Of a stretch of DNA of 64,000 nucleotides, positions 2 through 7,011 are shown piece by piece. The notes beneath the pieces are model-generated. The model had not been told where the DNA came from and searched no databases. It saw only the letters and a program-made list of their open reading frames with translations. The position numbers and the translations under genes are program-made. The first letter of the stretch is position 1. Every line of letters begins with the position of its first letter. The DNA is from Phenylobacterium sp. GTDB taxonomy: Bacteria > Pseudomonadota > Alphaproteobacteria > Caulobacterales > Caulobacteraceae. Location of the stretch: assembly GCF_013911965.1 (NCBI RefSeq), contig NZ_JACESE010000001.1, positions 62,001-126,000 of the forward strand, in the 5' to 3' direction.

Positions 2-1513
2 ACCTTCACCGGCGCGGCCGGTCTGCTGACCGGCTCGGGCCGCGTGCGGGCCTACAGCTTCCAGTCGGCCATGGGCGTCGGCCCTGGAGACTTCGGCGAA
101 CTCGGCACGCTGACCCTGCAGACCGACGCCCTGCTGGCGGCCGAGAACGTCCTGCAGATCGACGTGGCGCGCAGCGGCGCAGACCGTTTGGCGGTGATCG
201 CCGATCCTGAAGCGGCCCAGCCCTCCACCGGCGGTCTGATCCTGGGCGGCCTCCTGGTGCTGAACCCGCTGGCGGCCGACCGCCCCCGCGCCGGCGACCG
301 CTTCACCATCGTCAGCGCCGAGGGCGGCTTCCTGAACGACTTCGATGGCGTCGCCGACCTTCCCGGCGTTCTGCGCGGGGAGCTGGTCTATGGCGCGAAC
401 GCCATCGATGTGCTGATCGAGGCCGGTCTCTACGCCGACATCGCCGACATGTCCGACGCCAGCCAGGCCCCCTACGCCCGGCTGCTGGACGCCGCCCGCG
501 GCCCCGCCGACGGGCCCCTGGCCGGCCTCTACGACGGCCTCGACTTCCTGGAGGGCGAAGAGCTGAGCGCCGGCCTGCGCAGTCTGGCCCCGCTCGGCCT
601 GCAGAACGCCGAGGTGCTCGGCCGCCTGCAGACGGAGTCCGTCGCCCGCGCCGTCGCCGACCGCGCCCCGCTGGGGGTGAAGAACGCCGGCGCCTTCATC
701 GCCTATGGCCAGGGCCGCGGCGATGGACTTTCGCAAGCCTTCAACGCCAAGACGCAGATCGAGTCCGAATGGCTGGTCGGCGGCGGCGAGGCCCGGCTCG
801 GTTCGGCCACCGTCGGCGGGGCGCTCGCCTACGCTCGCGGCGATCTCGACCTGCCCACGCCCCAGGCGGAGGGCGAGAGCAAGCTCTGGCAGGCGATCGC
901 CTTCGGCCGGCTGGAAGGCGCCGCACGGCCCTGGACGCTGGAAGCCTCGGTCGGCCTCGGCCGTCAGGACCTGGAGTTCCGCCGCGCCTTCACGGCCGGC
1001 GGCCTCGCCTACGCCGCGGCCGGCGACACCGAGGCCGACCTCTATACGGCCACGATCGCGGGGACCTGGGACCTGCCCCTCGATTCCGGCCTGAAGCTCG
1101 TGCCGCAGGCCTCCCTGCGCGCCGCCCGGTTCGAGGTCGACGGCTTCACCGAGACCGGCGGCCCGGCCGCCCTGCGCGTCGACGGCTTCGAGGCCGACAG
1201 CGTCCAGGGCCGGATCGGCGTGGGCTTGGAGGGGCGTCTGCCGGTCGCCTCGGGCAAGCTCAGCGTGCGGGGCCGCCTGGCCCTGGCCCACGAGTTCGCC
1301 GAGGCGCCGGACGCCGCGATCGCCTTCGCCGCCAACGGCGCCGCGCGCGTATCGGCCGGCTTCCCCGACCGGGACGAGGACTGGCGCGAGGCCGGCCTGG
1401 CCGTGGCCTATGAGGACGGCCCGCTCGCCCTCACCCTGGCGGCCGAGGCCGATCTGGGACGGGACGAGGCGGATCTGGTCGATGTGAGCCTGCGCGCCGC
1501 CTGGCGCTTCTAG
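2..1513 (+). CDS. Autotransporter, C-terminal part (5' end outside window)
   Basis: The frame is open from base 2, so the start lies to the left of the window and about 500 residues of the C-terminal part are visible. The first ~200 visible residues look like the end of a passenger with short repeated beta-strand segments (for example [13 protein letters not shown]). The last ~270 residues have the alternating hydrophobic/polar pattern of an autotransporter beta-barrel and end in an aromatic residue (SLRAAWRF), typical of outer-membrane barrels recognised by the BAM complex. By family knowledge this is type V secretion: the barrel inserts in the outer membrane and the passenger is exposed or released. 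The passenger's role cannot be judged from the part seen. The next gene starts about 80 bases later and is functionally unrelated. Confidence 0.8.
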
Positions 1514-1526
1514 ACCCGTGAACGGC

Positions 1527-1556
1527 GGGCTGCTGGCGCCACGGTGTCAGCAGCCC
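1527..1556. terminator. Hairpin after autotransporter gene
   Basis: GGGCTGCTG (1527-1535) and CAGCAGCCC (1548-1556) form a perfect 9-bp stem with a 12-base loop, starting 13 bases after the autotransporter stop. There is no T-run, so it could be a factor-dependent terminator stem or a protein site rather than a classic intrinsic terminator. Confidence 0.35.
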
Positions 1557-1595
1557 CGCTGGCGCCGGAGCCTGCGCGCGCCTACCTTGGCGTTC

Positions 1596-3845
<2,250 letters not shown>

Positions 3846-3903
3846 GACTAGATCTCGGTCAGGATCGGATCTTAGCTTCTTCAACCGCCGAGGGAGAAAA
3901 GCC

Positions 3904-4125
3904 GTGCCAAAGTACCGCGTCCTTTGCCGTGTCGATGCTTACGTCGACTACATCGCCGAAGTCGAAGCCGACGACCCCATGACGGCCGCTCAACTCGCCT
4001 ATGACCATCCGGGCGACTACCAATGGGAAGCTGGCGGCGCACAAGAGTTCGATGCGCGAAAGTATCTGACGCTCGATGAGAATGGCGAAGAGATCGAAGA
4101 TACTCGTGCGGGAGACTGGATTTAG
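3904..4125 (+). CDS. Small acidic conserved hypothetical protein, first gene of the DpnI-like insert
   Basis: 73 residues from GTG, preceded by a clear ribosome site (GGGAGAAAA, about 8 bases before the start). It is strongly acidic, with many Asp/Glu and few Lys/Arg. It has an N-terminal beta-rich part (YRVLCRVDAYVDYIAEVEAD), a short helix (MTAAQLAYDH) and a tail with the pattern EFDARKYLTLDENGEEIE. The EFDAR...LD.nGeeIe pattern resembles small accessory-genome proteins I have seen in other alphaproteobacteria, but I cannot name a family or function. It lies 33 bases before the DpnI-like gene on the same strand and shares its lower GC content, so the two probably arrived and are transcribed together. 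A regulatory or accessory role to the nuclease is possible but not shown by the sequence. Confidence 0.75.
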   Translation: MPKYRVLCRVDAYVDYIAEVEADDPMTAAQLAYDHPGDYQWEAGGAQEFDARKYLTLDENGEEIEDTRAGDWI

Positions 4126-4158
4126 GCGCAGGTAACCAAGCTGCTGTTGGCTAAATCG

Positions 4159-5001
4159 ATGACAACCAATCCCGATCCGCCGGACGACGGTCTCTTCAAA
4201 TCGGGCGACACAGCCGACTATCTGCGCTTTGAGGAAGCGCCGCAGGTGTACCTTAGCCCTACGCAGCGCGCTCGCGTTTGGACGGAAGGTTGGGCGGCGA
4301 AATCCCTCTACTGCGCAAACTGCGGCAGCGACGAGTTGCAGCGCTTCTCGGCTAACAAGCCGGTCGCCGATCTGTTCTGCGCCGATTGCGGCGAGACGTT
4401 CGAACTAAAGAGTAAGAGGGGTCCCTTCGGGAAGCGCATTGTTGACGGTGCGTACGAGACGATGATCCAGCGGCTGAGGTCCGGAGACAACCCCAACCTC
4501 ATCCTGTTGAACTATGACTTGGCTAGCTTTGGCGTGACCGATGCCGTGCTGGTCCCGAAGCACTTTTTCGTGGAAGAGATCGTGGAGAGACGGCCGCCTC
4601 TCGCATCGACTGCAAGGCGGGCCGGATGGGTAGGATGCAACATCCGGCTCGACTTGATACCGGCCGCCGGCCGCATTTCCTTCGTCGCCAATCGAACGCC
4701 CCGGCCAAAGTTAGAGGTGCAGACGCGCTGGCGGGAGACGTTCTTTCTGCGAGAAGCAGGCGGCGTCGCCCGCGGTTGGTTGGTTGAGGTGCTTCGTATC
4801 GTGGAAGACCTGCGAAAGGACAGATTCTCTCTAAGCGACGTCTATGAGCGTGAGGCCAGCCTTCAAGCCGTTTATCCCGGCAACCAAAACATCAGGCCGA
4901 AAATCCGGCAGCAGCTGCAAGTTCTACGCGACCACGGCCTGGTCCGTTTCCTCGGGAACGGTCAGTACGAATTGGTCCGAAGTCGTACAGGCAATCTGTA
5001 A
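4159..5001 (+). CDS. DpnI-type (type IIM) methyl-directed restriction endonuclease
   Basis: Residue numbers here count from a TTG at 4147; the ATG at 4159 is residue 5 and is the start used. The protein matches R.DpnI along its length as I recall that sequence: two CxxC pairs (YCANCG, C56/C59; FCADCG, C78/C81) for zinc, and a PD-(D/E)xK site D75...E86-x-K88 with the same spacing as DpnI D53/E64/K66. It also keeps the RPVAD-like and FELKSKxG contexts, the block ARRAGWVGCNI, and a C-terminal winged helix (about 210-280; KIRQQLQVLRDHGLVRF). DpnI cuts GATC only when the adenine is methylated, and its winged helix reads the methylated base. Caulobacterales methylate GANTC (CcrM), not GATC, so such an enzyme should spare the host and attack Dam-modified DNA. 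GC content is visibly lower than in the neighbours, which suggests transfer. Confidence 0.92.
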   Translation: MTTNPDPPDDGLFKSGDTADYLRFEEAPQVYLSPTQRARVWTEGWAAKSLYCANCGSDELQRFSANKPVADLFCADCGETFELKSKRGPFGKRIVDGAYETMIQRLRSGDNPNLILLNYDLASFGVTDAVLVPKHFFVEEIVERRPPLASTARRAGWVGCNIRLDLIPAAGRISFVANRTPRPKLEVQTRWRETFFLREAGGVARGWLVEVLRIVEDLRKDRFSLSDVYEREASLQAVYPGNQNIRPKIRQQLQVLRDHGLVRFLGNGQYELVRSRTGNL

Positions 5002-5088
5002 GCGGTCCGAGAAACCTTCCGCCGGCCAGCCCTCCCGACCGTGCCCCAAAATCCCCACCTCTGTGTTGGATGAGCCCCGGAACGGATG

Positions 5089-5109
5089 GGGGACGGAACC
5101 TCCGTCCCC
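5089..5109. terminator. Hairpin downstream of the DpnI-like gene
   Basis: GGGGACGGA (5089-5097) pairs perfectly with TCCGTCCCC (5101-5109) across a 3-base loop, 88 bases after the nuclease stop. There is no T-run. A second stem lies at 5152-5170 (CCGGCTC/GAGCCGG). The stretch 5002-5205 holds no gene; these hairpins are its only visible structure. Confidence 0.4.
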
Positions 5110-5205
5110 GTCGTTCGTAATTCCGGGGTGACTGGGGCTGAGGTTGTTCAGCCGGCTCGCGGTGAGCCGGACCTGGGCCCTGCGACAGAACAGAAGAGGT
5201 GATCC

Positions 5206-5502
5206 ATGTCACCGTCTCTCAGCGTGGTGTCCGCCGACGGCAAGGTGGCGGCCCTGGAACGGACGAACAGCAACGACGCCGTGGTCGAGCGGGTGCGCCG
5301 GCTGCAGGCCGAGGCGCGCGGTCTTGTGCTTGAGCATGTGCGCGACCTGGAAGCGGCCCTTCACACCGTGGAGCGGCTGAGCAGGGAGATCGCCGGCGGC
5401 GGCGAACTCTATCCTCCGGGCGTGCGCGAGATCGCCCGCCGGCTGACCGAGGACGCCGAAACCAAGGCCCAGACCCTCGAAGCCATCATGGCCAAGGCCT
5501 GA
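5206..5502 (+). CDS. Conserved hypothetical helical protein
   Basis: 98 residues, ATG start with a good ribosome site (AGAAGAGGTG) 4-5 bases upstream. After ~25 polar residues the protein is predicted to be almost entirely alpha-helical, with heptad-like Leu/Val spacing (residues ~28-60, VVERVRRLQAEARGLVLEHV), a PPG break, and a second amphipathic helix to the end. There is no signal peptide, membrane segment or catalytic motif. GC and codon use return to the host average here, which marks the right edge of the lower-GC insert. The function is unknown. It could be a small cytoplasmic coiled-coil protein. Confidence 0.7.
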   Translation: MSPSLSVVSADGKVAALERTNSNDAVVERVRRLQAEARGLVLEHVRDLEAALHTVERLSREIAGGGELYPPGVREIARRLTEDAETKAQTLEAIMAKA

Positions 5503-6666: not shown

Positions 6667-7011
6667 ATGCGGCGCCGACGGGACGAGGCGAAGGCGCTCC
6701 GCCGCCGAATGTCCCTTCCAGAGGTCTTGTTGTGGATGCAGCTGCGGGCACGGCTGCTGAACAGGCAGTTCCGGAGGCAGCATCCTGTCGGCCCTTATGT
6801 CCTCGACTTCTATTGCGCGCGCGCCCGGCTTGCGGTTGAGGTCGACGGCTACGCGCACTCGACAGCGGATCGGCCGCAGCGCGATGAGCGGCGCGACGCC
6901 TGGCTGGCCGAGAGGGGTATCGCGACCCTCCGCCTGCCAGCGGAGCTGGTGCTGAGCGACATAGACGCCGCGGTCCGGACGATCGCCGCCGAGCTCGATC
7001 GCCGACTGTAG
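6667..7011 (+). CDS. DUF559 (Vsr-like PD-(D/E)xK) endonuclease-fold protein
   Basis: 114 residues. The layout is that of DUF559/COG2852: a basic N-terminal helix with SLPEVLLWMQLRARLL, then RRQHPVGPYVLDFYCARARL and AVEVDGYAH. D47 and E58 sit at the positions of the PD-(D/E)xK nuclease core related to the Vsr mismatch nuclease and restriction enzymes. A final strand LRLPAELVLSDIDAAV closes the fold. The family is common in alphaproteobacteria; activity has been little studied. The stop codon is directly joined to an inverted-repeat element (7010-7141), a pairing that may not be chance. It may be co-transcribed with the lipoprotein gene just upstream. Confidence 0.85.
   Translation: MRRRRDEAKALRRRMSLPEVLLWMQLRARLLNRQFRRQHPVGPYVLDFYCARARLAVEVDGYAHSTADRPQRDERRDAWLAERGIATLRLPAELVLSDIDAAVRTIAAELDRRL

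Follow-up and report, generated by a model that had tools for sequence, protein, structure and literature searches.

Downstream of uvrB in a Phenylobacterium genome, analyzed in a contiguous stretch of 64,000 nucleotides (the window), lies a putative restriction module of two genes, a DpnI-family endonuclease and a small acidic companion, which by its sequence is a new, dedicated family without a named match. We consider it likely that the module as a whole is a chromosomal barrier that cuts GmATC, and that the nuclease is most likely kept in check by its acidic accessory. The features of the module and of related loci are collected in Table 1.

Table 1. Features of the window and of related loci; L numbers denote other loci.
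Feature	Position	Strand	Remarks
uvrB (longest ORF)	1518..3845	+	true start probably 1596 or later
Present/absent segment	3846..5021	+	blastn vs L136, L137, L139
Companion, 73-aa acidic ORF	3904..4125	+	GTG start after AGGGAGA stretch
DpnI-family GmATC-dependent endonuclease (predicted), 284 aa	4147..5001	+	TTG start; in-frame ATG at 4159
DpnI-gene domain, zinc-bearing PD-(D/E)XK	residues ~33-203		
DpnI-gene domain, C-terminal winged helix	residues 208-275		
98-aa MSPSLSVV gene	5206..5502	+	homologue after uvrB in module-less L137, also L139, L143
MT-A70 ends beside DpnI	L002:2254-2451, L045:4642-5118		Pfam
MT-A70 ends beside DpnI	L047:4824-5018, L113:1713-2063		BLAST only
N6_N4 starts beside DpnI	L059:4774-5064, L066:4741-4968, L057:2330-2614		Pfam; BLAST; weak, E 0.003 (in this order)
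D12 start beside DpnI	L082:4800-4952		Pfam
Loci with uvrB upstream of DpnI	window 1518-5001; L009, L026, L031, L038, L071, L088, others		

The longer gene had originally been predicted to encode a DpnI-type enzyme, and all comparisons agreed on this identity. Its product matched the catalytic domain PF06044 (E 1.1e-62) and the winged-helix domain PF17726 (E 4.4e-26), both above cut-off, PADLOC assigned it to mREase_II (type II methyl-directed enzyme, 4e-86), and R.DpnI (4esj, E 3e-66), with which it aligns over 246 residues, was the sole PDB match up to E 0.1. The motifs named in the original prediction were likewise all found, namely both CxxC zinc pairs (C56/C59 and C78/C81), the active site D75-x10-E86-x-K88, the RAGWVGCNI block (residues 158-166) and the winged helix. 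According to passages of PMC4117772, the active site of R.DpnI consists of Asp53, Glu64 and Lys66, and its methyl-binding cleft of Leu129, Arg135, Trp138 and Gly140. In the alignment, where PDB chain positions equal these numbers plus 3, the two sets of residues map to D75/E86/K88 and to L152/R158/W161/G163 of the window enzyme. The catalytic, methyl-pocket and four cysteine residues are invariant in the six aligned sequences, the window's included. Judged by these matches, the gene encodes a full, genuine DpnI relative that is ordinary as an enzyme, and it would be expected to cleave GmATC in its present host.

The two genes would form a restriction module that is present or absent as one block after uvrB. 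In blastn comparisons with near relatives of the genus that lack DpnI, identity ended at the uvrB stop codon and returned at ~5022 (a 37-bp match, L136 only) or at ~5200 (L136 and L137), and in L137 the next gene on the same strand after uvrB is the homologue of the window's 98-aa gene. This break and resumption of identity mark the companion and DpnI pair as a present/absent block of ~1.2 kb. Its GC content is lower than that of both flanks, as had been predicted (58.6% in 3846-5020 versus 69.4% for the rest of the window), and none of 1257 equally long segments, taken in 50-bp steps, matched this low value. The companion ORF begins 58 bp after the end of uvrB. DpnI follows on the same strand, 21 bp further on if the TTG is used; the distance of 33 bases given in the original prediction is true to the in-frame ATG.

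The small ORF had been suspected to encode a partner of the nuclease, and the neighbourhoods of other DpnI homologues support and extend this idea, as companion relatives are found in 24 distinct DpnI loci and are thus not absent everywhere else. In these loci the companion lies on the DpnI strand at a distance of no more than 101 bp. It precedes DpnI in 19 loci and follows it in 5, so that the gene order flips in 5/24 loci with adjacency and strand kept. The count was made on the same strand (strand-free lists give no opposite-strand case), omits four duplicates and the remote short relatives L002 and L052, and includes L021, where the companion itself is split.

Occurrence of the two genes is linked as well. 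Among 100 relatives, own genome included, DpnI was found in 7 and the companion in 5, all 5 with DpnI. Two relatives have DpnI without a companion at the level of the window's family (companion A): in G075 a remote 60-aa companion relative precedes DpnI by 1 bp, and in G093 (L006) none of the grouped companions was seen beside DpnI. Within the genus, both genes are present in 5/60 genomes and neither in 55/60, some of the genomes being incomplete. The chance of such co-occurrence is 1/C(60,5)=1.8e-7, uncorrected for kinship and incomplete genomes. In the order sample, the companion was detected in 19/398 genomes, and DpnI in our own genome and in 13 of the 18 other companion genomes, adjacent to the companion in 13/13. 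The companion is rare in the class sample (3/385 genomes, two of the three without DpnI) and occurs in 2/190 genomes of the phylum sample. In the main A clade of a DpnI tree, 20/22 rows have the companion, counting G660 (L119 in the tree, with the companion in L107). The DpnI gene of G660 is split by an ORF that we read as a transposase, and its 63-aa end piece sits 61 bp from the companion; the DpnI of G483 is in two pieces. In G660, G483 and also G027 the companion is intact beside a broken DpnI.

Selection also acts on the companion. In 10 informative pairs dN/dS was 0.08-0.40, with several pairs near synonymous saturation, and an eleventh pair was identical; by these ratios the companion is under purifying selection. 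Conservation and linkage together indicate that the 73-residue ORF is a real gene, beyond chance. The window protein has a net charge of -12 (-4 to -16 across 27 family members) and matched nothing in Pfam, NCBIfam, PADLOC or the PDB at a meaningful score. With a 27-member profile we obtained one PDB chain at E 3.4 and scattered weak Pfam matches; the phage families that it matched, weakly and with E 0.00097 at best, are of unknown function. An AlphaFold2 model predicts a ββαβββ fold (mean pLDDT 81.6, pTM 0.67). Searches of open-licence papers turned up no mention of the companion, which, having no name, offers no search term of its own.

The companion is not confined to DpnI loci. Five genomes of the order (G376, G774, G645, G566 and G623) carry it without DpnI. 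In G376 and G774 it stands directly upstream of an HNH nuclease of 228 and 223 aa, with gaps of 106 and 161 bp, respectively. In G645 it is divergent from a BglII-family nuclease 111 bp away, with an MT-A70 methylase behind, and in G566 a weak, distant member adjoins the anti-restriction protein ArdC. In G623, no nuclease was recognised in the 3.2-kb stretch that carries the companion. Outside the order, G261 contains a weak companion match inside a longer protein. Because it occurs beside an HNH nuclease (two genomes) and a BglII-type restriction-modification system (one genome) without DpnI, the companion looks like a general restriction accessory, and with neighbours that are unrelated nucleases we prefer a mechanism independent of the nuclease fold. 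The two HNH nucleases are near in length to the wH-HNH enzymes (224-283 aa) that appear in passages of PMC11037411. The idea of the HNH nuclease of G376/G774 as a DpnI-type winged-helix reader was set aside; compared as a whole protein with the DpnI proteins of the alignment, it showed no kinship. Separately, the companion of G485 is immediately preceded by another defence-type neighbour, an AAA/OLD-like TOPRIM protein (L114:1716-3149).

The companion would most likely temper the nuclease, for example as a DNA mimic on its DNA-binding surface, and mimicry would also explain companion relatives beside unrelated restriction nucleases. Taken on its own, this restraining role is a tentative proposal. 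The acidity of the companion is weak support for nuclease or DNA binding. Ocr and ArdA are strongly acidic DNA-mimic anti-restriction proteins encoded by phages or plasmids; the companion, likened to them by description only, is also strongly acidic but encoded in the restriction locus. If restraint is indeed its role, the companion would serve methylase-less restriction systems as a safety device and could be used as an inhibitor.

The companion genes that are intact beside broken DpnI genes fit a separate role too. The companion might act independently of DpnI, as a small effector or an anti-restriction protein that merely shares defence loci with nucleases, as might also be suggested by its occurrence with the HNH nuclease and the BglII-type system, by the weak distant member beside ArdC, and by the weak matches to phage families. 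We regard this as unlikely, given that all 5 companion genomes among the 100 relatives have DpnI, and that 14/19 companion genomes of the order have it in the adjacent position.

The original prediction was wrong in one respect, in that it held a small partner to be no part of the known DpnI system: passages of PMC8515895 present DpnD as the second protein of the pneumococcal system. The genes dpnC and, by way of a primer, dpnD are also named in PMC3573125. In a passage of PMC12211801, dpnD is listed as a gene for a methyltransferase, a label at odds with the short DpnD-PcfM proteins found here. R.DpnI (DpnC) of Streptococcus pneumoniae shares its enzyme family, active-site residues and methyl-pocket residues with the window enzyme. 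The window companion, in contrast, is not recognisably DpnD and is encoded upstream of the enzyme gene, in a locus that adjoins uvrB. We know of no role for DpnD.

Could the companion nevertheless be a divergent DpnD? The window protein had no Pfam match to PF14207 (DpnD/PcfM) above cut-off, this family was touched by 1/27 companion members (E 0.098), and hhalign of companion versus DpnD profiles gave a probability of 40% with just 18 columns aligned. A three-sequence DpnD profile gave at least 5 bits for 7/27 companions versus 8/1080 shuffles, and in a search over 3911 small ORFs its eight best non-self matches (six distinct) were all companions; against this, the shared V-E-V-x-A-x-S-x-x-E-A stretch may be widespread in small proteins. 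In one Sulfurovum genome (L077:5739-5912), DpnI is indeed followed, after a gap of 6 bp, by a Pfam DpnD-PcfM protein (9e-13). On balance, the similarity of companion and DpnD appears suggestive at best, and common descent with DpnD is doubtful.

DpnI genes of other lineages have other small neighbours. We inspected 80 DpnI loci, the best among 562 that matched a query derived from members of this order, so that Alphaproteobacteria are over-represented. Companion letters A, B and C are our own labels; a curated name exists for DpnD only. In a tree of 91 DpnI proteins, companion A is associated with 23 rows (one of them, L002, with the remote short form), B with 32, C with 8, and none of these with 28, among which L119 is a miscount, its companion (G660) being in L107. 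Altogether 68/91 rows are without companion A, and two of them, L053 and L065, belong to the main A clade. Companion B is an acidic zinc-ribbon protein of ~93 aa (MAWFLN...DEWSC) from Rhizobiales (L024:5787-6068 and ~30 other loci), mostly encoded directly downstream of DpnI and upstream in L048 and L070. It was found in 1/385 class genomes (E at most 1e-6, a partial match) and is therefore, at this level of sensitivity, no widespread housekeeping protein. Companion C (63-75 aa) is encoded downstream, and 4 of its 8 hosts are named candidate-phyla bacteria and one Dehalococcoidia. The 28 rows without A, B or C include DpnD in L077, a fourth family in L029, L055 and L075, and a convergent fifth family in L009, L014, L034 and L073. 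The L077 locus is an instance of DpnD association outside Streptococcus.

It is conceivable, if speculative, that methylase-less DpnI enzymes are generally two-protein systems with a small, mostly acidic companion per lineage (A here, the zinc-ribbon protein in Rhizobiales, others in candidate phyla, DpnD in Streptococcus and Sulfurovum), and that companion A governs nucleases as a portable unit common to DpnI, HNH and BglII-type systems, probably in the form of a defender-encoded DNA mimic. DpnI is a laboratory staple, and with a conserved, linked companion here and further companions in other lineages its need for a small partner becomes testable.

A swap of companions, with DpnI changing partners, had been suggested by two companion-A rows (L112 and L115) that fall within the companion-B clade of the 91-protein quick tree (95%). 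In a 46-row test, a single A clade had a p-AU of 0.83, that tree being even the better one, versus 0.58 for L112 and L115 placed with two B rows. As neither tree is rejected, the swap was dropped.

In place of restraint, the companion may be a positive cofactor that stabilises or loads the endonuclease, or aids it in the host. Such a role would agree with the persistence of adjacency and strand despite order flips, and with the joint presence or absence of both genes in 60/60 genus genomes. It is nonetheless rather unlikely, since purified R.DpnI cuts on its own in vitro, according to passages of PMC4117772, and a partner is thus not needed for cutting. A specific stabilising contact is also harder to invoke where different companion families accompany DpnI elsewhere and one family accompanies unrelated nucleases. 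The PD-(D/E)XK-wH type IV enzymes that depend on N6mA have the same domain architecture as the window's DpnI relative; unlike for the window module, no small companion is mentioned for them, or for the N6mA-dependent wH-HNH enzymes, in the passages of PMC11037411 that describe them.

The restriction reading itself depends on methylation. A DpnI-type enzyme would cut GATC solely when the adenine is methylated, so that the cell would need no protective methylase, and it would destroy Dam-methylated phage or plasmid DNA, against which the module would act as a barrier. A search of the own genome with two methylase families gave one match to MethyltransfD12 and two to N6_N4_Mtase, none of them within the window, in line with the predicted lack of a cognate methylase there. 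Of the two N6_N4 matches, we take one to be CcrM-like and the other to be a type III-like methylase. The original prediction had supposed that GATC is free in this host. The one D12 protein scores 63 bits for Dam, versus a cut-off of 114.85, and has a phage methyltransferase family as its best fit. With the D12 match below the Dam cut-off in this two-family search, GATC in the host genome is probably unmodified. That the enzyme drifted to another methylated target, or that the module is silent in a host that itself modifies GATC, is very unlikely in spite of this D12-class methylase encoded elsewhere in the genome, as the methyl-pocket residues are fully kept and the methylase, the sole D12 match of the two-family search, stays far under the cut-off.

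The position next to uvrB is not peculiar to the window. In 33/97 loci, from Caulobacterales and Rhizobiales, uvrB is located upstream of DpnI on the same strand within at most 5 kb, in a sample that is biased to Alphaproteobacteria, contains G660 twice and has many flanks too short to tell. In 8 loci uvrB lies within 100 bp of DpnI or overlaps the longest ORF. All 5 modules of the genus sit near uvrB, which makes ancestral presence with losses as possible as insertion. Vertical descent of DpnI together with uvrB was considered as well but is not put forward. The distances of UvrB and DpnI correlated in 29 linked loci with a rho of 0.69, a value that 0/999 permutations attained, but the correlation was only 0.28 when a single Bradyrhizobium-type locus was retained (16 loci).

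A perfect GTTC-N7-GTTC box, the alphaproteobacterial LexA consensus, covers a likely uvrB start (window 1592-1606). The box recurs in 2/19 other uvrB loci (G004 and G016) and is absent from the nearest two (G005 and G001), and SOS control of the module is not claimed. Scanning 3700-5300 revealed nothing that resembles a promoter, and the interval from uvrB to the module showed no terminator-like site on the same strand.

The module was hardly seen on mobile elements. With the window sequences as queries, the companion had no match in plasmid or phage records, and DpnI was found in 2/72,556 plasmid records, both of them 2.17-Mb gonococcal records, and as one partial match in phage records. Alignment queries found neither gene in viral contigs. 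The dam-replacing protein drg of Neisseria shares its Pfam family name with the window enzyme and, according to PMC4269198, is likewise chromosomal with a GC content below that of its genome. It replaces dam in the leuS/dam locus, whereas the window gene is located downstream of uvrB with no D12 match in the window.

In eight loci (Table 1), DpnI modules directly adjoin short fragments of genes for adenine methylases, which recalls the replacement of dam by drg. Frameshifted neighbours are also noted in a passage of PMC11037411. In the window as a whole, GATC occurs 481 times versus ~181 expected from base composition alone. A 114-aa ORF further downstream (6667-7011) resembles, as we read it, small DUF559/Vsr-like nucleases.
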